A DNA stretch of 64,000 bases from Psychrobacter sp. bablab_jr014 (GTDB lineage Bacteria > Pseudomonadota > Gammaproteobacteria > Pseudomonadales > Moraxellaceae), in the NCBI RefSeq assembly GCF_016464015.1, contig NZ_JACDXT010000045.1, positions 1 to 64,000 on the forward strand, in the 5' to 3' direction. Below, in pieces: positions 4,816 through 53,068 of this stretch. Every line of letters begins with the position of its first letter. The first letter of the stretch is position 1. The position numbers were made by a program, and so were the translations under genes. The notes beneath the pieces were generated by a model. The model was not told where the DNA came from. It saw nothing but the letters and a program-made list of their open reading frames with translations, and did no database searches.

Positions 4816-4828
4816 AAGGAAGTCCATT

Positions 4829-9979: not shown

Positions 9980-10062
9980 TGGGTCTGTGGAGGTGCGGCT
10001 TTATGATGAAACTGCACCTTCTATATCAATCACTTACGACTACGATTAACCGCAAAATGTAT

Positions 10063-11235: not shown

Positions 11236-11343
11236 AATGACATCCTGAGCTAAAAATAATGCGCACAGTGTGACGGATTGCCGCAGTGTGAAAAACAGCA
11301 CAAATAACAAAATACTTTTGTTGTTTTTGTAGAGGTAGGTGTG
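11236..11343. promoter_or_regulatory. Divergent promoter region of the MFS exporter and LysR regulator
   Basis: These 108 bp separate two divergent starts. LysR regulators typically bind such intervals and control both genes. It is AT-rich on the LysR side. I could not single out a T-N11-A box with confidence. Confidence 0.5.
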
Positions 11344-12231: not shown

Positions 12232-12266
12232 GTTCTATGTACTTTTTATCCTAAAAGGAGAACATC

Positions 12267-13115: not shown

Positions 13116-13652
13116 ATGGCACAGACAAACACGTCTTCTACTGCAAAAAAAGCCCCAGTCAACCATGAGCTATACATGTCTGTACTGATGACACCAGACA
13201 TGGCGAACTTTACAGGCAATGTTCATGGCGGTGACTTATTAAAAATGCTCGACCAAGTGGCCTACGCGTGCGCGAGTCGTTATAGCGGCAGCTACGTGGT
13301 GACCCTATCAGTTGATCAAGTGATGTTCCGCGAGCCAATTCATGTGGGCGAGCTTGTGACCTTTGCGGCCAGTGTCAACTATGTGGGCAAGACTTCAATG
13401 GAAGTGGGCATTCGTGTTGAGGCCGAAAACGTGCAAGAGCGTACCATTCGCCATACCAACAGCTGCTACTTTACGATGGTCGCCGTGGACAGTGATGGCA
13501 AACCGACCTCTGTGCCGCCGTTAAAACTTGAAAACCCATTACAAAAATGCCGCTTTGATGCCGCACTTGAGCGTAAACGTTTGCACATGCAAGAAGCGCG
13601 TCGTCCAAGCTGTGACATTGATAGCATATCTACCACTACCAATCCATCATAA
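13116..13652 (+). CDS. Acyl-CoA thioesterase (hotdog fold, YciA/BFIT-like)
   Basis: This enzyme of 178 residues hydrolyses acyl-CoA thioesters in the cytoplasm. It contains a single hotdog domain. HGGDLLKMLDQVAYACASRY (about residues 35-54) is the helix with the catalytic Asp and the acyl-CoA pocket, followed by VDQVMFREPIHVGEL. The C-terminal 40 residues are basic (ALERKRLHMQEARR), as in BFIT-like enzymes. The ATG at 13116 is chosen over an upstream ATG at 13101 because AAGGA lies at 13106-13110. The gene stands alone before the CDF transporter. Confidence 0.9.
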   Translation: MAQTNTSSTAKKAPVNHELYMSVLMTPDMANFTGNVHGGDLLKMLDQVAYACASRYSGSYVVTLSVDQVMFREPIHVGELVTFAASVNYVGKTSMEVGIRVEAENVQERTIRHTNSCYFTMVAVDSDGKPTSVPPLKLENPLQKCRFDAALERKRLHMQEARRPSCDIDSISTTTNPS

Positions 13653-13727
13653 CGATAATTACGGATTGGTTTAGATGCCGTATATTTGCTTTAAATACGG
13701 CCTTTTTGCTTCATTGTTGAGATTATT

Positions 13728-14792: not shown

Positions 14793-14872
14793 TATAGCGC
14801 TCATATTGGTCTTGCTGAACTGCACTTTTAGTTGTTCAGCACTCAATCATTTAGCACATTATTGCTGCCCAT

Positions 14873-14905
14873 AAAAAAAGGCTTTAGAAAATTCTAAAGC
14901 CTTTT
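14873..14905. terminator. Bidirectional terminator between the CDF and Dps genes
   Basis: A long perfect palindrome (AAAAGGCTTTAGAA at 14876-14889 with its complement at 14892-14905) has A-runs and T-runs at its edges. It serves two convergent genes. Confidence 0.85.
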
Positions 14906-14941
14906 GTCAAACACCATTCGTCATTAAGACGTGTACATGTC

Positions 14942-15427
14942 TTATTTTTTCTGTGGCGCGTTAGCACCGATAAACCATGCATCTTTATCGACGATACGAC
15001 TGGCTTCGGTGAATAGGTCAGCGGTGTCTTCATCACCTGCTTCGCCCGCAGTGTCGATAGCTTCACGCAATACGTTGGCTACTTTTTTGTAGCGCTTAGT
15101 CAGCTCAACCACGTGGTCTTCAACATTGGTGATGTCGGTTGGGTAGTCGTCTAACACGGAATCTTTGGCAACGCGACTTGCCAAACCGTTTGGCTCGCCG
15201 CCTAGAATGACAATACGCTCAGCGATCATGTCTGATACGTCGCGGATACGCTCAGCAGTTTCGTCTAGCAGTTGGTGTACACCAATAAAGCCTACGCCTT
15301 GTAGGTTCCAGTGGCACTGTTTGCCATCAAGGGTAAGGTCAATCACGTTGGCTAGGTTTGCATTTAGTAGTTTTACCATTTCTTGTGCGGTGCTGTCGTC
15401 GATACCACTTGCGAAACGTTCTCTCAT
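14942..15427 (-). CDS. dps: Dps family ferritin-like DNA-protection protein
   Basis: The 161-residue protein is a Dps/ferritin-like helical bundle. These form 12-subunit cages that oxidise and store iron and protect DNA during starvation and peroxide stress. The ferroxidase residues lie in CHWNLQGVGFIGVHQLLDE, with the His, Asp/Glu pattern of the inter-subunit site. It has GGAGA five bases before the ATG. The gene is monocistronic; Dps genes are often OxyR- or stationary-phase-controlled, but I could not identify a site. It is convergent with the CDF exporter. Confidence 0.92.
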   Translation of the reverse strand: MRERFASGIDDSTAQEMVKLLNANLANVIDLTLDGKQCHWNLQGVGFIGVHQLLDETAERIRDVSDMIAERIVILGGEPNGLASRVAKDSVLDDYPTDITNVEDHVVELTKRYKKVANVLREAIDTAGEAGDEDTADLFTEASRIVDKDAWFIGANAPQKK

Positions 15428-39314: not shown

Positions 39315-40337
39315 TTAATAGGCTTGCGGCGCACTATAATCATCGAGCGTACCAAAGACTTTGGCGCGCTCAATAATCTCGAACGCCCATGCGCGATGCG
39401 TGGCAGGCTCAAGCATGGTGTCATTAAACTTAAACACCGCTTTGGCTTCACTGTCCAAAATGGCTTTGGCTTCATCAAGCGTACTCATGGGTACGGCAAA
39501 GGCTTGATGTACAAAGGCAATCTGCGTTGGGTGAATGACTGTCTTGCCCACCAATCCCAAGCTAACATCCTGCGTCAACTCCTGCATAAACAGCGTTGGC
39601 TTGTCCAAATACTCAAATACAGGCGCGGTTAAATAAAAACCATGCGGCACAAAGCAGCCGAGCAGTCCGTATATCAATGTGCCAATCGGCGTCTGATACA
39701 TAATACTGTCTTTTGGGCGGCGCAGACGCAAGGTCGCTAGCAAGTCATTACCGCCAATACGCAGCGCAAAAATAGGCTGGCTGAAGGCTTCTTTAAAAGC
39801 AATCGCTAGGTTTTGATTGTGCTCGGCATCAAATAGAGCAGCGGTTTCAAGCGTTGGCATAAGTAGCTGCTTTGATGGCAGATTTTGGCAAGCAATACGC
39901 CAATCAGACAGCCGTGACATATCGACTTTGGGCAAAACAAAGCCATCGACCAAGCCGATATGACGATGCTCAGCCAGTGTTTGTAGCATCGCAGGGTGGC
40001 GCGGACGCACAAAGACCAAGGGTCGGCTGCTAATGACACCATTGACCTCATGATATTCTGCCCATGTTGCTAATAGCTCTGAGAGCTGTGCCAGCGCATA
40101 GGGGACGTCTGCTTGTGACACAGCATCTTCTAAGCAAATAATAATGCTGTTGATGCTGGTCAGTTTTTTACGGGTAATTACTTGCCAAATATCCCCACGT
40201 GTCGCAGGCATGTATAGACTTGCCCCCAGCTGATAGGGGTGATGCGCCTCGGCACGAATGATGTCATGACGCTCGGTCACATGATGAAGATAGGACTGTG
40301 GATGACTAAAAGTCGAAAAAGAAAGCTCTGACATCAT
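39315..40337 (-). CDS. CitE-like HpcH/HpaI aldolase family protein, Ter-linked
   Basis: The 340-residue TIM-barrel protein resembles citrate lyase beta/HpcH aldolases. It shows YMPATRGDIWQVI, SIIICLEDAVSQ (metal/substrate Glu-Asp pair near residue 70), FVRPRH and LPKVDM, then GKTVIHPTQIA near residue 270. Such lyases cleave or form carbon-carbon bonds of acyl-CoA or carboxylates. This one is the last gene of the set that accompanies Ter proteins (ATP-grasp, two phosphoribosyltransferases, HAD), and in that setting it is predicted to act on the ribosyl metabolite. It lies 54 bp after the next gene upstream. Confidence 0.83.
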   Translation of the reverse strand: MMSELSFSTFSHPQSYLHHVTERHDIIRAEAHHPYQLGASLYMPATRGDIWQVITRKKLTSINSIIICLEDAVSQADVPYALAQLSELLATWAEYHEVNGVISSRPLVFVRPRHPAMLQTLAEHRHIGLVDGFVLPKVDMSRLSDWRIACQNLPSKQLLMPTLETAALFDAEHNQNLAIAFKEAFSQPIFALRIGGNDLLATLRLRRPKDSIMYQTPIGTLIYGLLGCFVPHGFYLTAPVFEYLDKPTLFMQELTQDVSLGLVGKTVIHPTQIAFVHQAFAVPMSTLDEAKAILDSEAKAVFKFNDTMLEPATHRAWAFEIIERAKVFGTLDDYSAPQAY

Positions 40338-40391
40338 AGACGGTGGACTCGTAGGTCAATAAAACAAAAAAATACTATCGCTCGCTCTATG

Positions 40392-41570
40392 TTACTCAGT
40401 AGCACGAGCCTTGATAATCGTGATGGCTTGATACGGCAAAATATCTGTACCCGCGATATGCATGCTGATGTTTTTCTCAATACATAAATACCGCAGTAGC
40501 TTGGTATCAGGATGCTCGGCGCTCGCCAGCAGCACTTGCTCAGGGTCACGGCGCAAGATAGCACGCGTCGCCTCAGCGATGGTCGGCTTGATGCGATTCA
40601 GATTGTCAATCTGCTGCTCGGTCGCAATGGCGTTGACAATCGCGGCAGTGCTGTAGCGCGGCCGCTGATATGTGGGCAGTACGTGCAAGGCCTCACTTGA
40701 TGCTGGCCGTAGCGCATCGACATGCTCAATGAAAGCAAGGCTATGGTCATGCGCCATCAGATTATCATACATTACCGCACGGTGTAGGCCAGTTTCGGGC
40801 GCGGTATATAAACTGCGCGATACCAGCCCTGATACCGTGCTGTTGAGCAGTCCTGAAGGTATCAGCCAATCATCATCGCTTGCGGACAGCCACGCCACAC
40901 CTGCAGGGTCAGCTAAGGTTAATAACGGCACAACGCCCGCGCCTTGATGAAAAATTGCGGCAAAATGTGGGTGCGTGTCTGTATTATACGGCGCAAGACT
41001 GCGTGCCAGCTCGCCATAAATCGCGCCTTTGCCTGTCCAGCCATCGACGAATACGAGCTTGCTGCCTTGATGTTGCGCTAAGATTTGCGCCAACGCATTC
41101 GCGTCCAAACCACGGTCGCGGATGATGCTCATGCCGTAATGAATACTGGGCAAAGCATAATCTGCGCTAGCGTCACTGAGTGCCCGTTGCAGCAGCACGC
41201 CAACGGGCAAACCTGCACGCACCAAGCTGATTAAAATGAGCGGCGTCTGCGCGTTAGCCTCAGCGGCAAAAAGATGATGCAAGGTATGCGCCAGATGGGC
41301 AATATCGGTTGCCATGCGCTCGCCGCCAGCCGCCAGCGCTTCTTGGTACAACGCCTCATGCGCCGCGCTTGGGGCGTCTTCTAAAGTCAGCATGTCTGAA
41401 TAATGGCGCTGCCCGCTTTGGATTAAGGCTTCTTTTTCATCGACAGGCACATCATTGACGGCGTCTTTATCAACGATATCCAGCAGCAGCGTCACGTCCA
41501 TCTCAGGATAGCTGCCTGAGCCGTAGCCAGATAATGGCAGCGATGGGGTAGCGGATGGGGCAGTCGTCAT
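40392..41570 (-). CDS. StiP-like protein: phosphoribosyltransferase-type domain with C-terminal PELOTA-like RNA-binding domain
   Basis: The protein has 392 residues. The N-terminal two thirds are Rossmann-like, with ILISLVRAGLPVGVLLQRAL and LVFVDGWTGKGAIYGELAR (the PRPP-loop equivalent). The C-terminal 90 residues (RIKPTIAEATRAILRR to the end) look like the RNA-binding PELOTA-like module that Ter-associated proteins carry. Databases often name this family 'cysteine protease StiP', but its neighbours argue for a role in making or attaching a nucleoside-like compound. The ATG at 41570 has GAG eight bases upstream. An in-frame GTG at 41579 is possible. Confidence 0.75.
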   Translation of the reverse strand: MTTAPSATPSLPLSGYGSGSYPEMDVTLLLDIVDKDAVNDVPVDEKEALIQSGQRHYSDMLTLEDAPSAAHEALYQEALAAGGERMATDIAHLAHTLHHLFAAEANAQTPLILISLVRAGLPVGVLLQRALSDASADYALPSIHYGMSIIRDRGLDANALAQILAQHQGSKLVFVDGWTGKGAIYGELARSLAPYNTDTHPHFAAIFHQGAGVVPLLTLADPAGVAWLSASDDDWLIPSGLLNSTVSGLVSRSLYTAPETGLHRAVMYDNLMAHDHSLAFIEHVDALRPASSEALHVLPTYQRPRYSTAAIVNAIATEQQIDNLNRIKPTIAEATRAILRRDPEQVLLASAEHPDTKLLRYLCIEKNISMHIAGTDILPYQAITIIKARATE

Positions 41571-41621
41571 GGCAAACACTCGTAAAGTCGGGGTAAAATT
41601 AATGCGTTACTATTTAGTGCG

Positions 41622-42446
41622 TCAATGTGCCAATGACGCGGTAATATGCTCATGTAGCTGCCCACGGCTGGGCGTGCCATACCAGTCAAGACATTGTAAA
41701 AAAGGCACATCCGCCAAGCTGTCACCAAAGCCAAAGCTCGGGCGGCGCGCATCGAAATGATGGTCTAATAAAAACGTGACTGCGTGCTTTTTATGCACCG
41801 CGTGCGGCAAAATAGCCAAGTTATTGGCATTTACATGGACATAAAAATCTTGGGCAAAGTTATCTATCTGCTGTGGCAAGGTTTGTGCCAATGTCTCTAA
41901 CGCCGCATGGTCTTTGTCAGGATGCTTGATAGAAATATAAATCGCCAGTGTCTTATCATTAAAACTATCACGGTGTACACGTACACGCAGCGTGGGTTGT
42001 ACTCTTTGCAAATGCGTTTGGATTGTACAGAGGGTATCCTGTAGCGCTGCTAGCATACTGTGCATGTGCGTAGCCCACGTGCTCAGTGGCGTATGCTCAG
42101 GCGTCATAATCACCGCGCCATGCGTCAGCACCTGCCAGCTATCAAAGGGCAATTTCACGCGCTGAATCTCGCTGATATCCCGCGCTGTCACTACCACCAG
42201 CTCGGTGCTGTGCAGTAGCCAATTAAAAAATGCTGCTTGCCTTGCGCTCATAAAGCTGAGCGGCTCGCCCTCGCGGTTGACCGAAGCGCACACCAAATCA
42301 TCAGTGGTGGTGGTTGGAATGTCCCACGCCTTAATCTTACGCATGGTTTGAAACAAAGTATCATCTAAATCCATCAGCGCATAGGGCTTGATAATCGTCG
42401 CATCAGGGGTAAAAAATGACGTCATAGCGCCGTGATTCCTTATCAT
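41622..42446 (-). CDS. HAD-superfamily phosphatase, Ter-linked
   Basis: The protein has 274 residues. Motif I DLDDTLF is at about residues 22-28, motif II threonine in VVTARD near residue 92, and motif IV GFGDSLADVPF near residue 240, so it is a Cof-type HAD hydrolase likely to remove phosphate from a sugar or nucleotide. Its ATG overlaps the TAA of the upstream phosphoribosyltransferase gene by one base (TAATG), indicating coupled translation. An alternative start at 42425 has AAGGA upstream. In the Ter-linked set a HAD phosphatase is proposed to process the ribosylated product. Confidence 0.83.
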   Translation of the reverse strand: MIRNHGAMTSFFTPDATIIKPYALMDLDDTLFQTMRKIKAWDIPTTTTDDLVCASVNREGEPLSFMSARQAAFFNWLLHSTELVVVTARDISEIQRVKLPFDSWQVLTHGAVIMTPEHTPLSTWATHMHSMLAALQDTLCTIQTHLQRVQPTLRVRVHRDSFNDKTLAIYISIKHPDKDHAALETLAQTLPQQIDNFAQDFYVHVNANNLAILPHAVHKKHAVTFLLDHHFDARRPSFGFGDSLADVPFLQCLDWYGTPSRGQLHEHITASLAH

Positions 42447-43720
42447 TATTTATCCGCAATTTGCGCAGCGGGACTCACCACCAGAACATTGTCTAAACCA
42501 GCCCACAGCGCATCGACACTATCGAGCGGCGTCTCGATACATAGGACAATCAAGTCCCATGCCTTAGGGTCGACGTTGTACACAAAGTTGGTCATGCCAA
42601 GACCATAATTGTCCTGAAACGAGAGCATACACTCAATCGCGCCGCCGAGTGCAATGGGCGAGCGCGTGAGGGCGGAGAACTTAACGTCATTTTCGGGCGC
42701 TTGCTTGCTCAGCCATTCTGCCAATAAAAACGGTAACCACACAAACTCATTACTGCCCAACACCAACACACGCTCAGGCAATTTGGCACTATTAAACGAT
42801 GTATTTCCAATATACTCGGCAAATCGTGTCTGAAACGCTGCCAAATACGCCTGAAACCCAGCGCGGCTGTCATAGGTTGGCAAGCGTCCCCAAATACCCG
42901 TCGGCAATAGCGGCTGACTGCCTGCATCAGTGGTATCTACGCTCGGCATGGTGATGGCGGGCGGGTTGGGCGCATCTTGCCATTGCCATGCGCCTGACAA
43001 TAGATGATGGCGATGAAAGGCAATGCCCGCAAGCTTATCCGCCAATACTTCATCCATTGTCGCCTGTCCCAGCGACCAATCGACCAACGTGGTTAAATGG
43101 ACTTGCGCTAACTGCTCAAGCCCAGCTACGCGCAGTGCATTGACCACATTGATGCAGGTGTTGCCTGTTGAGGCTTCGTCATCGATCATAATCAAGGTCT
43201 TGCTGGCAAGGAGCTGCTTTTGCACCTCTGAGTCATTGCTTTGGTACAGCAAATGGCGGCTGGCGTGACTGTGGTCTTCACTAAAGGTGGTAAGCAAGGT
43301 CGCGTCCGCCTGCGCGTGGCGGGTTGAGTTTAATAACAAGGCATTGGGATAGCGGGTTTGTAGGGCGCTGTGTACGCCAGCAGACAAGCCCACAGCCGTC
43401 TCCGCCATACCGACGACCACAATTGGCTCGGGCAGATTGTCAGGAATCGCGTCTGCCAAATCGGTAAAGCTGCGGCGCATGGTACTGGGCGCAACAGGGA
43501 TATGCCGCCCTAAAACCTTAGAGACGAATAAAAACGCGCGCTTTGGGTTGATACGCTGGGCAAAACCGAGCAAATCACTGAGCTGATATGGCGTGCTCGT
43601 TGTGCCTACAGGCTCGCAAATACGGTAGGACAGCTGTAATGTCCCACGTGGTAAGGTGACTTGGTGCTGGGTGGGGATGTTGTCTGTAGCGTGATGACTC
43701 ATTAGTAGTGAGGGTCTCAT
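42446..43720 (-). CDS. Phosphoribosyltransferase with C-terminal TRSP-like domain, Ter-linked
   Basis: The protein has 424 residues. The type I phosphoribosyltransferase fold ends in the PRPP loop IDDEASTGNT (179-188), which is canonical. The following part, with FHRHHLLSGAW, LPTYDSRAGFQAYLA and RVLVLGSNEFVW, matches the TRSP domain that accompanies Ter systems. Proposed role: forming an N-glycosidic bond between ribose phosphate and a base. The start is uncertain between 43720 and ATG 43702. It is directly coupled to the HAD gene. Confidence 0.8.
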   Translation of the reverse strand: MRPSLLMSHHATDNIPTQHQVTLPRGTLQLSYRICEPVGTTSTPYQLSDLLGFAQRINPKRAFLFVSKVLGRHIPVAPSTMRRSFTDLADAIPDNLPEPIVVVGMAETAVGLSAGVHSALQTRYPNALLLNSTRHAQADATLLTTFSEDHSHASRHLLYQSNDSEVQKQLLASKTLIMIDDEASTGNTCINVVNALRVAGLEQLAQVHLTTLVDWSLGQATMDEVLADKLAGIAFHRHHLLSGAWQWQDAPNPPAITMPSVDTTDAGSQPLLPTGIWGRLPTYDSRAGFQAYLAAFQTRFAEYIGNTSFNSAKLPERVLVLGSNEFVWLPFLLAEWLSKQAPENDVKFSALTRSPIALGGAIECMLSFQDNYGLGMTNFVYNVDPKAWDLIVLCIETPLDSVDALWAGLDNVLVVSPAAQIADK

Positions 43721-43740
43721 AAAAAGTTATAAAAAATGTA

Positions 43741-44871
43741 TTATGCTTTGATAAGGCGAACATAGAGCGTTGAATCGACCGTTTTGGTTTCAAACAGACC
43801 CACCGCCTTGACAATATCAATCAATTTATTGTAGCCATAATCGCTCGGACAAAATGCTGGATAGTAGTCTTTAACACGTTTGCCGACCACGCCAAAATTC
43901 ACCCAGCGCTGGTCATCATAATGAGGCTGACTGGCTACCGCACGACGTAAGCTGTTTAGTAGCTTGGTGTCACACCTTAGTTGCTGCGCTCGCCATGGTG
44001 TAGAGGGCAGTGTACTGCTGGCTTGTTTTTGCTGCTGTGTTGGCGCTAGCACAGCTGCGCTATCTTTTAACCGCATACACAGTGTGTTATCCACCATTTG
44101 TACATCATATAAGCCAATGGCACGAATCAAATCCGATGACTTGGCATAGCCGTATTTTTCGAGCTTCACATTTTTGTGATGCTGTTTTATTTGACTGATG
44201 ATATAAGATAAGTGTGACCAGTTACCCTTGGCTTGCGGGTTCTCTTTTAATAGCTTGTTCAGCAATCCGATGAGATGCGTTTGGGTTTGTAATTCTGAGC
44301 TGCTCCAACGCTTTTGGCTGACTTGTTCTATCGGCTTGGGCTTTGATAAGGTCGTTGGCACAGCGACTTTGCTTGCTGTTTGGTTGACCACCGTTTGAAC
44401 AGTGGGCAGTATTTCGGTAGCAGGCGCCGCAGGGTTCATCAAAGTCTCAAGATAATAAAAGCTATCGCACGCTTGTACAAACGCAGGCACGGTGCTTTGC
44501 TTGCCAAAGCCCAAAACTGCTGCGCCCTGTTTGCGGATACGCAGTGCTAAGGCAGTAAAATCGCTGTCGCTCGATATCAAACAAAACGCATCGTAGCTGC
44601 CATCATGCAGCATATCCATAGCTTCAATCACCATGCCGATATCGGTCGTATTTTTACCTTTGACATAGGCAAAATGCTGCATCGGCTCGATAGCGTGCGT
44701 GAGTAGCGCCGCTTGCCATCCGCGAATGTGCTCATCACGCCAATCGCCGTATATTTTTTTACAGGCGATGTGTCCGAGCGTCGCAATCTTTTTCAAAACA
44801 GGGGCAATACACTGCGCTGAGGTATTATCAGCATCAATGAGTACCGCAATGTTTCGAAACGTAGATGACAT
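43741..44871 (-). CDS. NYN-domain nuclease with two LOTUS/OST-HTH domains
   Basis: The protein has 376 residues. The NYN/PIN-like domain (about residues 5-145) starts with VLIDADN and has KGKNTTDIGM and ISSDSDF; these supply the acidic residues of a metal-dependent ribonuclease. A variable linker is followed by two related C-terminal modules (about 205-275 and 305-375), each ending in 'YGYAKSSDLIRAIGLYD' or 'YGYNKLIDIVKAVGLFE', the LOTUS/OST-HTH RNA-binding signature. ATG 44871 is chosen with AAGGA upstream. It lies between the phosphoribosyltransferase and ATP-grasp genes on the same strand, so it may be part of the Ter-linked operon. Confidence 0.87.
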   Translation of the reverse strand: MSSTFRNIAVLIDADNTSAQCIAPVLKKIATLGHIACKKIYGDWRDEHIRGWQAALLTHAIEPMQHFAYVKGKNTTDIGMVIEAMDMLHDGSYDAFCLISSDSDFTALALRIRKQGAAVLGFGKQSTVPAFVQACDSFYYLETLMNPAAPATEILPTVQTVVNQTASKVAVPTTLSKPKPIEQVSQKRWSSSELQTQTHLIGLLNKLLKENPQAKGNWSHLSYIISQIKQHHKNVKLEKYGYAKSSDLIRAIGLYDVQMVDNTLCMRLKDSAAVLAPTQQQKQASSTLPSTPWRAQQLRCDTKLLNSLRRAVASQPHYDDQRWVNFGVVGKRVKDYYPAFCPSDYGYNKLIDIVKAVGLFETKTVDSTLYVRLIKA

Positions 44872-44943
44872 CACTGTCCTTAAGTTTTGAGCGTTCAGTT
44901 TTAAGTATGGTTGCGTGGCGCAAAAGGTCAGTGCACAAAAGGC

Positions 44944-46035
44944 TTATATCTGCACACTCATCATAATTGGGCGCACTTGGCAGGGGGTGATAGCCGCTTG
45001 CGCCATCTCCAGCGTGGGCTTGTCCATCAGTCCCAGCCAATAGCCAAAGCCCACTTGCGTCAAGTCTAGGCCACTATGCGTGGTGTAGCCGATACCGCCA
45101 GAGGGGCGACTGTTAATCTCCAGCACATGATGGCGACCCGCGTCATCCGCCTTGGTTTGTACGCTCACAATACCATCACAGCCAAACTCATTAATCAATG
45201 GCTGAACGACCGCCATCACGGATTCATCATAGCCAACGTGCTGGATTTTGCCCGTCTTATGACGCGTGATTGCCGCCAGCACCTTGCCTGCCTCACAGAC
45301 CATATCAATAGAGTACTCTTGCCCGTTTAAGTGCGGCATCAGCAGCATCGGAATGGGGCGCTCCTGTACCATGGCGCTGTTTTGATAGGCGTTAATAAAT
45401 TGCTCGGTAGTGATTTTTTTATTGTCCGTATGATATAGATGCTCAAAGCTGTCCCAACGCTCAGGGGGCGCACGCGCATTGTCCAAACGCCAAAACCCTT
45501 GCGCAAAAATCCCCACGATTGGCTTGACACATAGCGGCTGGTGACCGTGCTTTTCTAATAAATTTTTCAGCTCGTTGATATTGTCAAAGCGCCAGCCGTC
45601 GGCCACAGGAATGCCCGCCGTCTGACAGCGCTGGGTAAAGGCAAATTTATCATCAATAGCTGCCAAGTCCTTTACAGACAATGCCCCTGTGAGCAGACGA
45701 ATACCTGCTGCTTCAAAAGTAGCACGCTCGGCCTCGTACTCATCGCCATTGCGCCCTGTTAGCAGTACTTTGACATTGTGTGCACGGGCTTTATCCAGCA
45801 CGAATTGCCACCGCGGCGTGTCGTCGGTCGGCTCATAATAGACGGTATCTGCGAACTCAAAAATCTCAGGACGTTCGCTACGGTGCGAGGCGATAATCTC
45901 AAAGTCTGCGGCCGTTTGCGTCTTTAGTCGTTGTAAGCTGTGCAGCATATCGCGCTGGCTAGACTGTCCTTCAGCGAGCCAAACGGCAGGTCGTGTTGTC
46001 ATAGCAGCAGAATCATCCATAAAATGATCATCCAT
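44944..46035 (-). CDS. ATP-grasp domain ligase, Ter-linked
   Basis: The 363-residue protein belongs to the ATP-grasp fold (carbamoyl-phosphate synthase-like). An N-terminal Rossmann-type domain is followed by the ATP-grasp fold with LCVKPIVGIFAQGFW (about residues 168-182), LMPHLNGQEYSIDMV (about 232-246) and the metal-binding EINSRPSGGIGY (about 310-321). ATP-grasp enzymes join a carboxylate to an amine via an acyl phosphate. In Ter-linked gene sets it is expected to condense a carboxylate-bearing intermediate. Start M1 or M6; the first was kept. It is divergent from the TerA-like gene. Confidence 0.85.
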   Translation of the reverse strand: MDDHFMDDSAAMTTRPAVWLAEGQSSQRDMLHSLQRLKTQTAADFEIIASHRSERPEIFEFADTVYYEPTDDTPRWQFVLDKARAHNVKVLLTGRNGDEYEAERATFEAAGIRLLTGALSVKDLAAIDDKFAFTQRCQTAGIPVADGWRFDNINELKNLLEKHGHQPLCVKPIVGIFAQGFWRLDNARAPPERWDSFEHLYHTDNKKITTEQFINAYQNSAMVQERPIPMLLMPHLNGQEYSIDMVCEAGKVLAAITRHKTGKIQHVGYDESVMAVVQPLINEFGCDGIVSVQTKADDAGRHHVLEINSRPSGGIGYTTHSGLDLTQVGFGYWLGLMDKPTLEMAQAAITPCQVRPIMMSVQI

Positions 46036-46301
46036 TGATTATAAAAAATTGAGCACAAGTGTTTTGTAGGCACGATAGTAGCAGCTTGCCCAAGTGCCCG
46101 CAATCATTAAGATAGAGAGAGAACTGCGAAGTACGCAGCGCGTACATTTTATCGTCAATACGCGCGCTCAGTGACCTTATTGTATGAATAAGTAGCAATA
46201 ATTTTGCGGTATTTGTCTTGCACCCTGATGGCGATATCGTTATGTTTATAACACGCTTTTTTTACTCAATAACGATTATTTGATAACCACAGGAACCCAC
46301 C
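46036..46301. promoter_or_regulatory. Divergent control region of the Ter-linked biosynthetic operon and terA-like gene
   Basis: This 266-bp interval separates the minus-strand ATP-grasp gene from the plus-strand TerA-like gene. A perfect 6-bp palindrome GTACGC/GCGTAC (46131-46145) lies in its middle. It must carry promoters for both sides. I could not assign -10/-35 pairs firmly. Confidence 0.45.
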
Positions 46302-47525
46302 ATGAGCCAAACCTTGATTGCAGGGGCAAACGCACCGTTACCGACCGACAATATCAGCGTACGCATCATGAGCAATGCACCGATTGATTGCGCCGCTTAC
46401 CGCCTTGCGGCAACAGGACAAGTGCGCGGGGATGGCGACATGATTTTTTATGGGCAAACGCGCAGCGATGATGGCAGCGTTTCGTTTCGTGGTCATGACA
46501 GCGATGGTTTTTTTGATATCAATTTGCCCGCGCAGCCTGCTGCAATTGAAAAAATTGCCTTAGCCTTTTCAAACGACAAGCCCTTATCACACATTGGCGA
46601 TGTTGATATTCAAGTGTTTGTAGGCAATCAACAGCTGCTTACTGCCACGTTGCCTGCGGCAGGACGGGATGAAAAAGCCATCATTTTAGCCGAGTGCTAC
46701 CGCCGTCAAGGGGCGTGGAAATTTCGCTTTATCGCCCAAGGGTTTAACGGCGGACTCAAGCCATTGTCCGAGCACTTTGGGGTTGAGATTGCCGATGACG
46801 CGCCCAGCCAAGCCGCTCAAAACCAAAACAGTGCGCCCACACCGCCGCCAATACCGAGCGCTGCGCCAAGTAGTGTGAATCTTAATAAAATTAGCCTAAC
46901 CAAGTCGCAATCGAGCATTAACCTAAAAAAACGTGACAACTTTGGCAAAATCGCAGTCAACCTCAACTGGAATCAGCAGGGCGATACGGGTAATCAAAAC
47001 AGCAGCCCTGCGCCCAAAAGAGGCCTGCTCTCTGACTTATTCAGTCAGCATCAGAGTAAAGGGCAAAATATTGATTTGGATGTCGGTGCAATGGTACATC
47101 TGGCTAATGGCGAAAAAACGTTGATTCAGGCACTTGGCGACCGTTTTGGGCAGTTAAACGCGCCGCCGTATGTGTGTTTGCGTGCCGATGACCGTACAGG
47201 ACAAAACAAAACGGGCGAATGGCTGGACATTAACGGGGCAGAGTGGGCGAATATTAAAGAAGTGTTTATTTTTGCCTTTATTTATCAAGGTGTGCCCAAC
47301 TGGGCAAAAACCGATGGCGTGGTGACCATTGACGTACCTGAGCAGCCACCGATTGAGACGCGCTTGACCGAAGGCGCGGGCAACATGCCCATGTGCGCCA
47401 TTGCCCGCTTGGTTAACCAAAACGGCAGCATCAATGTCGAGCGTATCAATCGCTATTTTTCAGGGCACCAAGAGATGGATAAGGCGTTTGGCTGGGGCTT
47501 TCAGTGGAAGCGCGGCAGAAAATAA
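46302..47525 (+). CDS. TerA-like tellurium-resistance family protein with two TerD-type domains
   Basis: The protein has 407 residues. The first TerD-like beta-sandwich (about residues 1-170) ends in the family tail GAWKFRFIAQGFNGGLKPL. A Pro/Ser/Asn-rich linker (about 175-205) follows, and then a second domain (about 205-407) with KIAVNLNWNQ, DLDVGAMVHL and a WLDINGAEW segment typical of TerA. The acidic calcium-binding stretch of the TerD proteins is not conserved in domain 1. TerA is a stress-response partner of TerD/TerC. It is the only gene on the plus strand within the island and ends at a strong terminator. Confidence 0.85.
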   Translation: MSQTLIAGANAPLPTDNISVRIMSNAPIDCAAYRLAATGQVRGDGDMIFYGQTRSDDGSVSFRGHDSDGFFDINLPAQPAAIEKIALAFSNDKPLSHIGDVDIQVFVGNQQLLTATLPAAGRDEKAIILAECYRRQGAWKFRFIAQGFNGGLKPLSEHFGVEIADDAPSQAAQNQNSAPTPPPIPSAAPSSVNLNKISLTKSQSSINLKKRDNFGKIAVNLNWNQQGDTGNQNSSPAPKRGLLSDLFSQHQSKGQNIDLDVGAMVHLANGEKTLIQALGDRFGQLNAPPYVCLRADDRTGQNKTGEWLDINGAEWANIKEVFIFAFIYQGVPNWAKTDGVVTIDVPEQPPIETRLTEGAGNMPMCAIARLVNQNGSINVERINRYFSGHQEMDKAFGWGFQWKRGRK

Positions 47526-47562
47526 CGCGTGATTGCTCTACATTACTCTTATTAAGCATAAG

Positions 47563-47590
47563 AAAAGCCCGCTGTCTTAGCGGGCTTTTT
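47563..47590. terminator. Terminator between terA-like and terD-like genes
   Basis: AAAAGCCCGCT (47563-47573) pairs with AGCGGGCTTTT (47579-47589) over a 5-base loop. It acts in both directions. Confidence 0.9.
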
Positions 47591-47618
47591 GGTGATGACC
47601 TAATTTAAAATAAGGCGA

Positions 47619-48224
47619 TTAAGCGTGCGGTGTGACCGCAGGCATCAAATCATGGAACGTGCGCCCCTTTGCGGTTTCGCCGATGGCGTGCATTTTCCAT
47701 TCGTTATTATGACGATAGACTTTTGCCATAATCATCGCCGTGTGACTGCCTTGCGCCGATAGGTTGTAGCGAGCCACCTCTTGATTGTTATTGGCATTGA
47801 CCAAGCGGCAAAATGCATTGGCAACGCTGTCAAAGGTCTGACCCGTAAAGCTGTTGACGGTAAACACCAGCGACGTCACATTGGCAGGTACGCGTGACAA
47901 ATCAACATTAATCACTTCGTCATCACCGTCACCATCGCCAGTACGGTTGTCGCCTGTGTGGGTGATGCTGCCGTCGTTGGAATTCAGCTGCCCAAACCAA
48001 ATGGTGTCAACCACTTGTTTACTTGCATCAAACATGATGCATGAGGCGTCCAAATCAATAGATTTACCGCCACCGCCACCAAAAAGCTTGCCCAAAAAGC
48101 CGCCGCCTTGTTTGTCTGATGCGCCTGCCACGTCCCAACCCAGTCCGAGTTTGACTTTGGTTAGGTCGCCGCCTGCTTCTTTACTTAACGAAATTTTTTG
48201 TCCTTTTTGCAAACTGACTGCCAT
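47619..48224 (-). CDS. TerD-family protein with glycine-rich insertion
   Basis: The 201-residue protein has the TerD fold. It starts with LQKGQKISLSKEAGG, has a Gly-rich loop GGGFLGKLFGGGGGKSIDL near residue 41, and carries the calcium-binding stretch GDNRTGDGDGDDE near residue 93. TerD proteins bind calcium and act at the membrane in metal and phage stress responses. The glycine loop replaces the usual turn before the DLDA strand, a feature of TerX/TerZ-like members. It is convergent with the TerA-like gene and 45 bp after the AIM24 gene. Confidence 0.9.
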   Translation of the reverse strand: MAVSLQKGQKISLSKEAGGDLTKVKLGLGWDVAGASDKQGGGFLGKLFGGGGGKSIDLDASCIMFDASKQVVDTIWFGQLNSNDGSITHTGDNRTGDGDGDDEVINVDLSRVPANVTSLVFTVNSFTGQTFDSVANAFCRLVNANNNQEVARYNLSAQGSHTAMIMAKVYRHNNEWKMHAIGETAKGRTFHDLMPAVTPHA

Positions 48225-48269
48225 GATGTCTGTCCTTATAATACATAGTTATTGTTTAGAAATAGTGCG

Positions 48270-49022
48270 CTATAGTACTTGGTTTAAAAAGCCGCCATTA
48301 CCGCCGCGTCCGCCTGAGCTGCTGCCCAAGATGCTTTGTAACCAGCCTTGATAGCTGTCGCGGTTGCGTGAGCAGATGATGACTTTACCTTTGCCTGAAA
48401 AATTCAGTACCATGCCTTCGCCGCTGGTGACAGAATTGATGATATTGCCCATAAAGCCTTTTTTCTTACTGGTCGAGACTGCCAAGCGATAATCAAGGTT
48501 TGAGTCCCAGCAGACGACGTGACCATTGTCAATAATCACGTCTTTATCAGGCGTCACCTCAATCTCAAACAGTGAGCCAAAGCCTGATACCACAAGCTGT
48601 CCCTTACCTTGGGTTTGCATCACCACAAAGCCGCCAGTATCACCGAATACCGCCCCGCCAAGATTTCGCTGGATATTGGCATTGACCTGTACGCCTTGTT
48701 GCGCGGCGACAAACGCACCGTCACTTAGCGTATATTGCTGCGCGCCGACCTCAATGATTTGCATGTCACCATCTAAAGTCGGGGCGAGTAGACAATCGCC
48801 TTCGCCATGTACCGCTTCAATCTCTTGTTGAAATAGTGATTCGTCATTGGCAAAACGGCGCATCAAGGATTGCATGATACCGCCTTGCAGCTTGCCTTTT
48901 AGCTCAAGGTTCGATTCCATCATCACCATCGCATTGGCTTCGCAATAAATCGAATCGCCACGCTGTAGGTTACAATGCAAAAAAGGCTCAATCGTGCCAA
49001 TCAAGCTAAATGTCGCCGCCAT
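48270..49022 (-). CDS. AIM24/TIGR00266 family protein
   Basis: The 250-residue protein belongs to the AIM24 (DUF124) family, a beta-prism fold. Visible parts are ESNLELKGKLQGG, GEGDCLLAPTLDGD, QGKGQLVVSGFGSLFEI and a closing glycine-rich tail GSSSGGRGGNGGF. AIM24 proteins occur near Ter genes and bind membranes in a way not fully known. Here the gene sits between two terD-family genes on the same strand and probably belongs to their operon. No enzyme motif. Confidence 0.83.
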   Translation of the reverse strand: MAATFSLIGTIEPFLHCNLQRGDSIYCEANAMVMMESNLELKGKLQGGIMQSLMRRFANDESLFQQEIEAVHGEGDCLLAPTLDGDMQIIEVGAQQYTLSDGAFVAAQQGVQVNANIQRNLGGAVFGDTGGFVVMQTQGKGQLVVSGFGSLFEIEVTPDKDVIIDNGHVVCWDSNLDYRLAVSTSKKKGFMGNIINSVTSGEGMVLNFSGKGKVIICSRNRDSYQGWLQSILGSSSGGRGGNGGFLNQVL

Positions 49023-49099
49023 AACTACGCCATCCTTATATCAAGTTCAATCATCAGCAAAATAAATAATAAAGCAAGGTATTACTACTATACGCCATA

Positions 49100-49170
49100 C
49101 AAAAAAAGAGGTGCAGAACCGCAGTCATTTTAGGCAAATGCCAATAATGCTGAACCGTCCATGCACCTCT
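49100..49170 (-). terminator. Long hairpin between terD-like and AIM24 genes
   Basis: Outer arms AGAGGTGCA (49107-49115) and TGCACCTCT (49162-49170) enclose a 46-base inner region with its own small hairpin (GGCAAATGCC). T-runs follow on the minus strand. A terminator or a processing site between operon genes. Confidence 0.55.
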
Positions 49171-49227
49171 GTATCAGACAATATACGCATAAAAAATCGT
49201 ATATTTATCTAAAGCGTATCGGTAGGA

Positions 49228-49803
49228 TTACACATTCACGCCATAAGAAGCCGCTAATGGACCTAGACCGCCGTTAAAGCCTTGACCAACAGCGCGGAAT
49301 TTCCAATCGCCATTGTGGCGATACAACTCACCAAAAATCATTGCGGTCTCGGTGCTGCTGTCTTCTGATAGGTCATAGCGGGCGATTTCGCTGTTGCCAT
49401 TGTCATTGACGATACGGATATACGCGTCGCTAACTTGACCGAAGTTTTGGTTGCGGCTTTGGCCTTCATAGATGATGGCGCAGATAGCGACTTTGTTCAC
49501 ATCCGCAGGCACGCTCGCTAGGTTGACTTTAATTTGTTCATCATCGCCGTCGCCTTCGCCAGTACGGTTGTCGCCTGTGTGCTCGACTGCGCCGTTGTCA
49601 GATTTTAGATTGTTAAAAAAGATAAAGTCTTGGTCATTACGCACTTTGCCTGCATCGTTTAGCAAAAAGCCAATTGCGTCCAAATCAAAGTCTTGACCGT
49701 CGGTGGCACGTGGGTCCCAACCCAAACCAACAGTGATATTGGTTAAGCCTGGGGCTTCTTTTGATAGGTTGACGTTGCCGCCTTTGGTTAAGCTGATAGC
49801 CAT
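49228..49803 (-). CDS. TerD-family protein, copy A (TerD/TerE)
   Basis: The 191-residue protein is a full TerD domain starting [20 protein letters not shown]. It has [19 protein letters not shown] and the calcium-binding loop [13 protein letters not shown], and ends in [18 protein letters not shown]. The start at 49803 has AAGGA seven bases upstream; an upstream ATG at 49890 would add 29 non-family residues. It is close to the copy at 52493 (about the same length and many identical stretches), which suggests duplication within the island. Confidence 0.94.
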
Positions 49804-50044
49804 GGTTGTATCCTTAATCGTTATTGAATGGTGGACAAAGGACTGTGTCTCTTGCCCAAAAACACAAAATCGTACAATCTTACACCGCATGCATTCCTTT
49901 TTAGCTGTCCAATAGCCATTTGGTAAAAGGTATCACTTCGGTGACGCTTTACTATACTAAGCAGGGCGAGGGGACGCAAGGCGAATTTTGTCCTGTTACG
50001 CATTACTTATATTGCGATGAAAAGGCGATAGATTCGGGCGCTTT

Positions 50045-50980
50045 TTAGTTACCAAATACTGACCAGCCTGTCTCTTGGACGAACATCTCAAGCGCCATAG
50101 AGCCAAGCTTTGAGTTGCCGACATGGTCAAGACCAGGCGACCATACGGCAATGGCGCCTTTACCTGGTGCAACGGTCAAAATCCCGCCGCCGACCCCACT
50201 TTTGCCAGGTAGTCCGACACGATAGGCAAACTCACCTGAGCCGTCATAATGCCCGCACATCATCATTAAGGAGTTAATGCGTCGTGAACGCTGGGCATTA
50301 ATCACGCGCACCCCTGTGTGATTGTTGACACCATTAGAGACCAAAAACAGCCCCGCACGTGCCAACTGACGGCAGCTCATGGCAATAGAGCATTGGTGAA
50401 AGTACGTGCCCAATACCTTGTCTACATCGTGCTTGAGACGACCAAAGGATTTCATAAAATGGGCAAGCGAGGCATTGCGGTCTTTGTGCGCCATCTCTGA
50501 GGCGGCGACCTTGTGGTCAAAGCTGATGGTATCGTCATCGGCGATAAAGCGTACAAATTGCAAAATCTCACCCAATACCGCTTTTGGCTCATGTCCCATC
50601 ATGATGGCGTCCACCACCGCAATCGCACCAGCGTTGATAAACGGATTGCGCGGGCGACCTGATTCGTGCTCGAGCATCATAATCGAGTTAAATGGGTCAC
50701 CTGATGGCTCGCGGCCCACGTGCGTCCATAGGGCATCACCCAACTTGCCAAGGCCAATGGTTAAGGTAAATACCTTAGAGATACTTTGAATCGAAAACAG
50801 CGTATCGGCATCGCCTGCAGCATACATTTTGCCATCGGGGGTGGCAACTGCGATACCAAACTGATTGGGGTCAATGTGCGCAAGCTGCGGGATATAGTTG
50901 GCGACCTTACCACGTTCGGTCTCTTTTGCCATTTGCTTGGCAATATCATCAAGAATCTGTTGCATAGTCATATCACTCAT
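50045..50980 (-). CDS. glsA: Glutaminase (beta-lactamase-like fold)
   Basis: Glutaminase hydrolyses glutamine to glutamate and ammonia. The 311 residues contain the serine-lysine pair of the SxxK motif in SIQSISK (Ser66, Lys69) and VKNYIPQL-like [15 protein letters not shown] at the start. [13 protein letters not shown] and the C-terminal [10 protein letters not shown] complete the active site. This start (50980) matches family N-termini; a longer in-frame start at 51115 would add 45 residues. It lies between terD copy A and the DUF475 gene on the same strand, an unusual place for a glutaminase. Confidence 0.94.
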
Positions 50981-51097
50981 GATGTTACTAGGACGCAAAA
51001 AGGCAGCGCCGATACAGCGCCTGTGCCCTAATGATTGATTGCGAGTGATTGTAACCGAATATGGACGTAAGGGCAGCAAAATCCCAAAAACGCGCAT

Positions 51098-51130
51098 AAA
51101 AAAACAAGCCATCACGATTGTAATGGCTTG
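51098..51130 (-). terminator. Terminator after the DUF475 gene
   Basis: CAAGCCATcAC (51105-51115) pairs with GTaATGGCTTG (51120-51130). Poly-A upstream gives seven T on the minus strand, so the glutaminase probably starts from its own promoter. Confidence 0.8.
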
Positions 51131-51156
51131 CTATAAATGATGTTACGTAATCTGCC

Positions 51157-52227
51157 TTACTCTTTAAGCAGTGCAGCTTCTTTTTTGCGGTGCTTGAGCG
51201 AGCCCCATAGTGCTAAGCCAATAAAGGCAATACCAATCAGACCAGTAATCAGCTCAGGGACGTGGAATTTGACCGACAGCAGCATGATGATAGCAAGTGC
51301 GCCAATAGCGTAGTGCGCGCCGTGCTCAAGGTAAATAAACTCGTCCAGCGTGCCTTTGTCCACCAAAAAGATGGTCATTGAACGTACGAACATCGCACCA
51401 ATCGCCAGACCCAACATGATGATAATCACGTCATTGGTAATGGCAAACGCGCCAATCACACCATCAAAACTGAACGACGCATCTAAGATTTCTAGGTATA
51501 AGAAACCAATGATACCGCCTTTCATAATCGCGCTGGTCGCCGCGCCCGCATTACCAGATTCTTCGGCTTCTAGTTCTTCTTCAAGGTCGCCTTCCAGCAT
51601 ACCTGACACCACTTGCACACCAAGGTAGACCAAAATACCCCAAACGCCCGCAATAAGTACGGCGCTTGCTTGCTCCGTAGCCGCCTGTGAGACTGCAATC
51701 ATCAATACAATCAGCGCCACAAACACGCTCATGGCATCGACCTTGCCCAGCTTAGCAAGGCGGCTTTCTAACCACTCAAACCAATGCACGTCTTTGTCAT
51801 CAAAAACAAAGTTTAAGAACACCAGCAGCAAGAAAATACCACCAAATGCCGAAATCTCCGCATGGTGCGCCATCAGTTTGGCAGAATATTCAGTCGGCTC
51901 ATACAGCGCCAGATTGATAACTTCCATCATGCCCATGTCGGCAGTGACGGCAACGATGACAATCGGGAAGACCAAACGCATACCAAAGACGGCGATTAAA
52001 ATACCGACGGTTAAGAAAATCATTTTCCAAAAATGATCCCAGTGCTTGAGCACCGAGGCGTTGACGACCGCGTTATCAAAGGACAGTGAGATTTCCATCA
52101 CTGCCAAAATTGCGGTAATCGACAGCGCTGAAATCAGCCCACCAATGCCGCCGTGTGAATATCCCCACCATGACGCCACAATCAGGGCAATCGCGGTAAA
52201 GATAAAGTCTAAATAAAAATGCCTCAT
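51157..52227 (-). CDS. DUF475/TerC-like integral membrane protein
   Basis: The 356-residue protein has about nine membrane helices. The TerC-type acidic helix motifs are EISLSFDNAVVNASVL (about residues 46-61) and DASFSFDGVIGAFAI (about 250-264); their Asp/Glu residues are thought to bind metal. The middle cytoplasmic loop is acidic (EGDLEEELEAEESG). TerC-family proteins export manganese or help load metal on secreted proteins. This DUF475 branch is common in Ter operons. It lies between the two terD copies and the glutaminase. Confidence 0.9.
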   Translation of the reverse strand: MRHFYLDFIFTAIALIVASWWGYSHGGIGGLISALSITAILAVMEISLSFDNAVVNASVLKHWDHFWKMIFLTVGILIAVFGMRLVFPIVIVAVTADMGMMEVINLALYEPTEYSAKLMAHHAEISAFGGIFLLLVFLNFVFDDKDVHWFEWLESRLAKLGKVDAMSVFVALIVLMIAVSQAATEQASAVLIAGVWGILVYLGVQVVSGMLEGDLEEELEAEESGNAGAATSAIMKGGIIGFLYLEILDASFSFDGVIGAFAITNDVIIIMLGLAIGAMFVRSMTIFLVDKGTLDEFIYLEHGAHYAIGALAIIMLLSVKFHVPELITGLIGIAFIGLALWGSLKHRKKEAALLKE

Positions 52228-52492
52228 GACATATCCTATAAGATGGTGTAAAACGAGAGAGAGTCAGACTCAGACCCGCGCACTGTCAAATTTAGCTGCG
52301 TTATTAAGCGCTTACAAATCAGCAGTGGGTATAGCAGATGAGCAGTAGTGAACACAATTAAAGCGTGCATCAACACGCTTTAACCGTTAAAACAATACAC
52401 CTATAATGGGGGCGTTTGTGCCAAATAACATGAGCAACGATAATCTTGATAGAACGTCGTTTGACACTAAATGCTCAGTCATTTTTTAAGCA

Positions 52493-53068
52493 TTAAATAT
52501 CTACGCCATATTGATGACACATGGCTTGTAAGCCGCCTGAATACCCTTGACCCACGGCGCGGAATTTCCACTCGCCATTGTGACGATACACTTCACCAAA
52601 GACCATCGCGGTCTCGACCGAGTAGTCTTCTGCCAAATCAAAGCGTACCACTTCCGTACCTGTTTCTTCATTGACCACACGGATAAAGGCGTTCGCCACT
52701 TGACCAAAGTTTTGGTTACGTGCTGCCGCTTCGTGAATGGTCACGGTGACCACGATTTTGTCCACATCGCTGGGCACTTGGGTCAGATTGACCTTGATGA
52801 CTTCATCATCACCATCGCCTTCGCCTGTGCGATTATCGCCTGTATGCTCAACCGCGCCATTGTCAGATTTTAATTGATTATAAAAAATAAAATCATGGTC
52901 GCCGCGCACCTTGCCTGCATTGCTCAGCAAAAACACGCTGGCATCAAGGTCAAACTCCGCACCCGAGGTTGCGCGCTCATCCCAGCCCAAGCCGACCAGC
53001 AGTTTGGTTAGATTAGGGTCGGTCTTGGTTAGTGAGAGGTTGCCGCCTTTGTTTAATGATAAAGCCAT
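52493..53068 (-). CDS. TerD-family protein, copy B
   Basis: The 191-residue protein starts [20 protein letters not shown], with [19 protein letters not shown] and the calcium-binding [13 protein letters not shown], and ends in [17 protein letters not shown]. It has the same length and layout as copy A. It is the first gene on the minus strand of the island and has a promoter-like sequence upstream. The C-terminus [11 protein letters not shown] carries a cysteine absent in copy A. Confidence 0.94.

Follow-up and report, generated by a model that had tools for sequence, protein, structure and literature searches.

A predicted NYN-OST-HTH nuclease gene in the putative biosynthetic operon of a Psychrobacter Ter locus and its link to TerD domains

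What is an RNase-type gene doing inside an operon that is predicted to make a nucleoside-like metabolite for a Ter stress-response system? The question is raised by a stretch of 64,000 nucleotides from Psychrobacter sp. bablab_jr014 (contig NZ_JACDXT010000045.1, positions 1 to 64,000), in the following called the window, which holds a Ter island at positions 39315–53068. A sequence-only reading of the island had named three TerD-family genes, a TerA-like gene, a DUF475/TerC-like membrane protein and an AIM24 protein beside an ATP-grasp ligase, a phosphoribosyltransferase (PRTase) with the phosphoribosyl pyrophosphate (PRPP) loop IDDEASTGNT and a TRSP-like tail, a StiP-like protein, a HAD phosphatase and a CitE-like lyase. 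Every one of these genes was found, with family matches above the curated Pfam/NCBIfam cut-offs used for the whole island. The loop is present as described, and PRTase_2 and TRSP are both matched. Two genes of the same interval had gone unlisted, namely one for an NYN-OST-HTH nuclease, which separates the PRTase gene from the ATP-grasp gene, and one for a glutaminase. We report that this nuclease belongs to a group in Psychrobacter and Moraxella that is Ter-linked and often fused to a TerD domain. As a whole, we assign a probability of roughly one half to a reading in which a Ter sensor complex and a ribosylated metabolite work with two accessory effectors, a protease and an RNase that are coupled to TerD.

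From its anatomy and system membership, the island is almost certainly the known Ter stress-response locus with biosynthetic operon, in the form found in Psychrobacter: TerD genes, a TerC-type membrane protein, five pathway families in one run and linkage of the two halves were all found. This biosynthetic system and its Ter link are already known and are not the novel part. As had been proposed, the gene set is the one predicted by others to yield a nucleoside-like compound; Pfam families are named for the pathway and papers cite Anantharaman 2012 for the prediction. One of them, PMC8115787 (this and the other PMC papers are cited from excerpts), describes two operons on opposite strands in Klebsiella, a putative biosynthetic one and terZABCDEF.

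The coupling of the two halves was followed in a sample of 149 Moraxellaceae genomes, with counts given without correction for phylogeny (L and G numbers refer to our loci and genomes). A strong ATPgrasp_Ter match (E<1e-28) occurred in 62 genomes, comprising 37 of 41 Psychrobacter and 25 of 108 others, and 61 of the 62 had at least three TerD matches; the exception, G089, shows the ATP-grasp gene alone in its stretch. Five genomes (G016, G022, G075, G090, G093) have at least three TerD matches and no strong ATPgrasp_Ter match; in Psychrobacter, the four genomes that lack a strong match (G008, G108, G111, G130) show one TerD match each (E about 1e-13 to 1e-14). Besides the window's own genome, 60 of the 62 were viewed as stretches (36 Psychrobacter, 24 others; G145 was left out); the 36 Psychrobacter stretches and the window make up the set of 37 loci used below. 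TerA-like, TerD and AIM24 genes adjoin ATPgrasp_Ter in all 37, which bears out the synteny on which the sequence-only reading had been made to depend. The order lyase, StiP, HAD, PRTase, ATP-grasp (CIT-STIP-HAD-PRT-GRASP) was seen in most of them, in most other fetched Moraxellaceae stretches, and on one enterobacterial and one Pseudomonas plasmid. In six genomes no Ter gene lies in the stretch of up to 20 kb that holds the biosynthetic run (L054, L055 and L068 in Moraxella, L072–L074 in another Moraxellaceae genus), and the Ter core lies elsewhere in the genome, the halves being on separate stretches (G025, G036, G106, G042, G033, G006). Because core and run co-occur even in genomes where they are unlinked, a functional link independent of adjacency is suggested. 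A tblastn search with the PRTase matched 2556 plasmid records, 2544 of them covering at least 80% of the query, and 2204 of the 2556 belong to Klebsiella, Escherichia, Enterobacter or Salmonella; a scan of viral sequences with the PRTase alone gave no match.

The claim of a minus-strand biosynthetic unit of about 6.7 kb could be kept in part. The run exists and is divergent from the terA-like gene, but it has six genes, one of which is of RNase type and not obviously biosynthetic. As a general rule the single unit does not hold, since an insert on the opposite strand cuts the ATP-grasp gene off from the remaining run in 17 of the 37 loci.

By its domains, the additional gene encodes a member of the NYN/LK-nuclease plus OST-HTH family, a predicted RNase. 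The active-site acids of the NYN domain (D13, D15, D77, D102 and D104 of the reference row, in the motifs IDADN, TD and SDSDF) are invariant in six aligned homologues. Bacterial proteins with the same domains in the same order are described in PMC2848206, where, in the excerpts, conserved neighbourhoods of their genes with other known RNA-processing systems are said to be lacking. Unlike those genes, the Moraxellaceae group is Ter-linked and often TerD-fused. The window nuclease has a match in 40 of the 149 Moraxellaceae genomes, which lies in a Ter or biosynthetic stretch in 11 (eight Psychrobacter, three Moraxella).

The link was examined further by a genome-collection scan with an alignment (A1) of NYN-OST-HTH(-TerD) proteins, in which the best 80 loci of at least 478 candidate stretches were taken and their neighbours scored with purpose-built hidden Markov models (HMMs). 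All 17 Psychrobacter and Moraxella loci among these 80 (L117–L133) are linked to Ter or biosynthetic genes, the 14 from Psychrobacter lying inside the run and the three from Moraxella immediately following the Ter core; the contigs of L119, L125 and L129 are short and show the run without a TerD gene in view. Near the remaining 63 no TerD or biosynthetic gene was found within up to 10 kb, many of these stretches being truncated where a contig stops; an AIM24-type gene is present in L147 and a protease match in L162. A tail of TerD or TerA type is present in 12 of the 17 (nine Psychrobacter, three Moraxella). In P. frigidicola (L094, same contig as L117) the fused TerD domain scores 68.9 bits against a cut-off of 25.3, and the corresponding domain of Moraxella oblonga (L097, on one contig with L132) reaches 38.5 bits, also above the cut-off. 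A protease gene stands directly upstream of the nuclease in 15 of the 17 loci, in two different settings; P. okhotskensis 5179-1A (L121), for example, possesses nuclease, protease and ter core. Nuclease and operon have the same orientation in 8/8 loci of the 37-locus set and in 14/14 Psychrobacter loci of the scan; the two sets share genomes, and their counts depend on each other.

The window nuclease domain is nearest to other Psychrobacter Ter-linked copies, with 64% identity over 162 columns to that of L117. In a rough NYN tree with long branches, calculated without the two Moraxella rows L131 and L133, 16 Ter-linked rows fall on one side of a branch with support 91/44, beside Moraxellaceae paralogues. 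The tree does not reject a single origin of the Ter-linked set and is compatible with it, no more. The ratio of nonsynonymous to synonymous substitution rates (dN/dS) was 0.07–0.30 for the nuclease in seven pairs, three of them with saturated synonymous sites, and 0.04–0.12 for the PRTase; judged from these ratios, the nuclease is under purifying selection but evolves faster than the PRTase.

A nuclease that is a general component of Ter systems was rejected. The gene was not found in eight class-level biosynthetic loci outside the family (L212–L219; several are cut by contig ends, and L217 has just 3.7 kb), in L197–L201 or in the 24 non-Psychrobacter Moraxellaceae biosynthetic stretches L053–L076. 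In a search for the fusion across the class (369 genomes, just one of them another Moraxellaceae), 105 genomes match A1 and no open frame spans the nuclease and TerD parts; the matches that extend from the nuclease part beyond A1 column 290, namely those of G403 and G161 and a single piece of G392, reach that far only by crossing stop codons. None of 2722 matching plasmid records covers 80% of the NYN-OST-HTH-TerD fusion, nor does any of 8 matching phage records, and ten loci on viral contigs with a nuclease match have no Ter genes by the HMMs built here. The nuclease matched one PHROGs family, of unknown function, and three pathway proteins matched none.

The position of the nuclease gene suggests a further explanation. 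The PRTase/ATP-grasp gap of the 37 Psychrobacter loci holds the nuclease in 8, the protease in 22 (20 full-length; L039 and L042 have fragments only) and opposite-strand genes of other kinds (V4R+MHYT in 12, major facilitator superfamily in 4, RidA-type in 2), and is empty in 7; these counts overlap, and L082, whose stretch has no PRTase, could not be scored. Other biosynthetic genes are missing from the stretches of L045, L082 and L087. A second spot, between a TerD gene and the TerC-like gene, takes glutaminase (16 loci) or an opposite-strand VUT-family transporter (8). Both gaps might thus be insertion spots in a stable chromosomal locus, with nuclease and glutaminase as passengers that have no Ter role. 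This would fit the identity of the window nuclease to its homologues, mostly 45–56% (36% in L050), compared with about 56–72% for the five biosynthetic genes outside the closest relative, L046. Against it stand the common orientation of nuclease and operon, the protease gene that precedes the nuclease in two different genomic settings, the TerD fusion of many copies, and the contrast of 17/17 with 0/63 loci. For the nuclease we regard a passenger role as unlikely. The glutaminase has none of this evidence; it looks like cargo of the second spot and may well be a passenger. In another Moraxellaceae genus (L057, L058), the PRTase/ATP-grasp gap contains open reading frames (ORFs) that by eye resemble a protein kinase, a PP2C phosphatase and a vWA/zinc-ribbon protein, so that this spot also hosts signalling genes.

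The protease that accompanies most of the Ter-linked nucleases combines Trypsin_2 with an N-terminal region that matches TerD marginally. As a novel gene it is ruled out, since it has the same place in the operon of a Pseudomonas megaplasmid (NZ_MF344571.1), of the IMG/VR contig L200 and of other Moraxellaceae. Megaplasmid and contig share ATP-grasp, TerD-type/trypsin-like protease, PRTase, HAD, StiP, lyase and TerD genes; they have the protease and no nuclease, whereas the window shows the reverse. L200 is classed as viral, and its Ter and biosynthetic locus with protease (3840–15373) also has TerB- and TerC-like ORFs by eye; it may be a provirus or a misclassified plasmid.

A second result concerns the chemistry of the operon. 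The protein that had been called StiP-like indeed matches the StiP family, but the domain is best read as a second PRTase. In Pfam and in plasmid annotations StiP is labelled a cysteine protease. The sole cysteine of the window protein, C366, lies in the PELOTA part and the StiP domain has none; no invariant cysteine was found in this domain among 13 diverse homologues from Psychrobacter to phage ME3. A cysteine protease was rejected for want of a conserved catalytic cysteine. Invariant in the 13 homologues are the motifs RAG-P and a VDGWTGKG loop. A domain model was obtained from 12 rows with a mean predicted local distance difference test score (pLDDT) of 68.6 and a predicted template modelling score of 0.75, after an earlier model from 12 close rows had been unusable (pLDDT 43.5). 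All 50 entries listed by VIA-align 2 for this model are PRTases, 47 by title and three with cut titles that we take to be such, the top match having a Z of 9.1 and a root-mean-square deviation of 3.8 over 157 aligned residues. With hhalign, StiP against PRTase_2 gave only E=0.011 at a probability of 3.8. We read the StiP domain, with moderate confidence, as a probable second type I PRTase, and the label "cysteine protease StiP" appears to be wrong. StiP together with PRTase, tellurite and cysteine protease was not found in the literature searched. A second PRTase would change the chemistry to look for and correct a label of plasmid annotations.

ATP-grasp enzymes form amide- or peptide-type bonds with ATP, PRTases use PRPP, and HAD enzymes cleave off phosphate. 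NYN domains are predicted to be RNases that depend on metal, and OST-HTH binds RNA. With these activities, the locus could work as follows. A membrane and sensor core made of the TerC-like DUF475 protein, the TerD proteins, AIM24 and the TerA-like protein would stand beside an operon for a ribosylated, nucleoside-like small molecule. The ATP-grasp enzyme would join a carboxylate and an amine on a base-like precursor, the two PRTases (PRTase_2-TRSP and StiP) would transfer 5-phosphoribose from PRPP, the HAD enzyme would take a phosphate off, and the lyase would make or trim a carbon side chain. TerD-type domains may sense metal or metabolite, and enzymes coupled to them would act on the signal. 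In Psychrobacter and Moraxella these would be an accessory pair of effectors, the TerD-type/trypsin-like protease and the NYN-OST-HTH nuclease with its frequent TerD fusion. The window would represent a variant with the nuclease alone; because it is kept inside the operon without a TerD tail, its control may proceed by co-expression or by partner Ter proteins. A nucleoside-like product of the operon appears somewhat probable to us, and the role of the nuclease as effector is put forward tentatively, as less likely than not.

There is precedent for parts of this reading. According to PMC3710099, HEPN RNase genes are occasionally coupled to a TerD-dependent anti-phage system, and PMC8195603 reports OST-HTH effector modules in certain conflict systems. 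Going further, the Ter locus could be a signal-and-effector immune system in which infection or chemical damage leads to a ribosylated signal that binds TerD domains. Proteins and RNA would then be cleaved by the two TerD-coupled effectors, the trypsin-like protease and an RNase that has LOTUS domains and is a relative of animal MARF1; the window would be a variant with the RNase loaded into the signal-making operon. We consider this highly speculative and improbable.

Several observations weigh against accessory effectors that read a ribosylated metabolite. The window nuclease has neither a TerD tail nor a neighbouring protease, and the closest relative by protein identities (L046) has no nuclease. 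The gene is patchy (8/37) and its spot also takes unrelated opposite-strand genes, which makes hitchhiking possible. Other Moraxellaceae NYN-OST-HTH genes lie outside Ter stretches (L108–L110, L112 and L136, the last being a second M. oblonga paralogue that is not Ter-linked). Two of the three Moraxella fusion copies look broken, L098 by a frame break and L099 by in-frame stops, while that of M. oblonga (L097) is intact. For the protease, one of three TerD scores is above the cut-off (27.0 bits in L069; 21.5 bits, below it, in L081; unreported in L097). A Foldseek search with the StiP model of mean pLDDT 68.6 reached no hit at E≤0.001, and unrelated folds are among the entries it listed. None of ten proteins matches the anti-phage defence models of PADLOC 2.0.0 at E≤0.01. 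Finally, the biosynthetic half may do something else, because, in work on Klebsiella/E. coli, terZ-F is enough to confer resistance to tellurite (PMC8115787).

Instead of acting on outside RNA, the nuclease might regulate its own locus by RNA turnover, cutting or stabilising the mRNAs of the operon or the ter genes. Its gene sits in the middle of the operon, OST-HTH is a predicted RNA-binding domain, and PMC2848206 proposes that fused LK/NYN nucleases degrade chosen RNAs; the gene is, however, missing in 29 of the 37 loci and thus not generally needed for expression, which leaves this role improbable. Comparably doubtful is a product that binds or detoxifies metal, such as a chelator for tellurite or metal: the best-known trait of ter loci is tellurite resistance, and ATP-grasp and CitE-like enzymes occur in other small-molecule pathways, but the presence of two PRTases alongside a HAD phosphatase suggests ribosylation, and the sufficiency of terZ-F speaks against it as well.

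The reading with TerD-coupled protease and RNase can be compared with described systems. An RNase-type gene next to TerD genes has a precedent in the HEPN RNases of PMC3710099, where this occurs "on a few occasions"; these have another nuclease fold and a McrBC-type setting, and the excerpts mention neither NYN-OST-HTH nor the biosynthetic operon. In the literature searched, TerD and an NYN domain were found together in that paper, whose excerpted TerD passages concern HEPN RNases and in which NYN stands only in a reference; five papers, this one included, contain both NYN and the expression "Ter-dependent stress response". The link of NYN-OST-HTH nucleases to Ter and their TerD fusion appear to be unreported in the literature searched; Anantharaman 2012 could still mention them. 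Similar to the window, the ter cluster of Psychrobacter glacincola BNF20 (PMC5822837) has terA in opposite orientation, TerC, TerD-family genes and a TIGR00266/AIM24 gene, and no terB. Its main text, taken without figures and supplements, does not contain the words ATP-grasp, phosphoribosyltransferase, glutaminase or NYN, and another P. glacincola strain (L128) carries the NYN gene. An enterobacterial Ter locus on a Chimaeribacter plasmid (L197) has the order ATP-grasp, PRTase, HAD-type, StiP and HpcH/HpaI lyase, divergent from the ter genes, as in the window; it is plasmid-borne, has TerB, and as the sole such locus examined shows no NYN-OST-HTH gene. In the Acinetobacter phage vB_AbaM_ME3 (PMC7824862), PRTase, HAD and StiP genes lie in this order beside TerD- and TerC-type genes; the PRTase is 29% identical, and the 17 kb examined gave no match for ATP-grasp, lyase or nuclease.

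The identity of the predicted Ter metabolite, or what reads it, is not stated in the excerpts of the literature searched. A nuclease that bears TerD and travels with a protease that may bear TerD too would provide concrete, assayable candidates for such readers. At the same time, the Ter link would supply a gene context for bacterial NYN-OST-HTH proteins, which are relatives of animal LOTUS-domain RNA-control proteins.

Table 1. Features of the Ter island in the window, with positions, strands and supporting matches.
Feature	Position	Strand	Evidence and remarks
C-C bond lyase, TIM-barrel (CitE/HpcH-HpaI-like)	39315..40337	-	PF15617 C-C_Bond_Lyase E=1.4e-95; last gene of biosynthetic run
StiP + PELOTA RNA-binding domain	40392..41579	-	StiP PF11202 1.2e-80; PELOTA_1 PF15608 6.3e-22
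HAD (Cof/IIB-type) phosphatase	41622..42446	-	Hydrolase_3 PF08282 1.5e-5, 25.3 bits, cut-off 20.9
PRTase_2 phosphoribosyltransferase + C-terminal TRSP	42446..43720	-	PF15609 1.1e-53; PF12500 4.6e-18
NYN (PIN-like nuclease) + 2x OST-HTH/LOTUS, predicted	43741..44874	-	NYN PF01936 1.9e-33; OST-HTH PF12872 2e-19, two stretches
ATP-grasp ligase of Ter biosynthetic pathway	44944..46035	-	ATPgrasp_Ter PF15632 6.7e-32, 110.5 bits, cut-off 29.1; first gene of run
Intergenic region between divergent ATP-grasp and TerA-like genes	46036..46301	.	
TerA-like protein, TerD domain + second half	46302..47525	+	PF02342 6.9e-26
Terminator-like hairpin	47563..47589	.	11-pair stem; consensus match only
TerD-family protein	47619..48224	-	PF02342 E=2.3e-57 to 4e-57
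AIM24/TIGR00266 protein	48270..49022	-	PF01987 2.9e-54; TIGR00266 143.5 bits, above cut-off
TerD-family protein	49228..49803	-	PF02342 2.8e-86; start placed at TerD match within longer ORF to 49890
Glutaminase	50045..50971	-	NCBIfam glutaminase 488.5 bits, above cut-off; match begins at ORF residue 49
DUF475/TerC-family membrane protein	51157..52227	-	PF04332 2e-112 and PF03741 3e-14, both above cut-off
TerD-family protein	52493..53068	-	PF02342 2e-88

In the direction of transcription, the six-gene run reads ATP-grasp, NYN-OST-HTH, PRTase_2-TRSP, HAD, StiP-PELOTA and C-C lyase, with gaps of 69 and 20 bases, an overlap, and gaps of 42 and 54 bases. The Ter core, also on the minus strand, reads TerD, DUF475/TerC, glutaminase, TerD, AIM24 and TerD. 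Since the TerA-like gene and the last of these TerD genes converge on the terminator-like hairpin, core and run look like separate minus-strand units. In the PRTase_2 domain, D180, D181, E182, T185, G186 and T188 of the loop are invariant in 13 homologues; the nearest sequence relatives of the lyase in the PDB are citrate-lyase-type proteins (top E=2.4e-6). The intergenic region upstream of the ATP-grasp gene contains short blocks that are conserved in an alignment of 31 Psychrobacter regions and poorly kept in the window, and sigma-70-like sites were found at chance level (19 versus 19.4 expected). No TerB match was obtained among genes of at least 90 amino acids at 39315–53068, where other models alone were applied to the glutaminase and two of the TerD genes, and the remainder of the genome was not searched; the terB that stands between the terD-type genes and terC in the classical terZABCDE(F) operon was thus not found in the locus.

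Chance ORFs are ruled out by the Pfam scores together with the synteny, and a recent foreign island at this site by the conserved flanks and a guanine-plus-cytosine content without a jump, which dips to 0.435 around 43700–44299. In 34 of the 36 fetched Psychrobacter loci rlmL follows beyond the last TerD gene, and in 21 of the 36 abH precedes the lyase gene, some stretches being too short to tell. Elsewhere in the source genome, a second Ter-type gene (C45:13311-13826 onward) has a TerD domain followed by a von Willebrand A-like region and is TerF-like by eye, and a weaker TerD match lies at C55:31490-31903.

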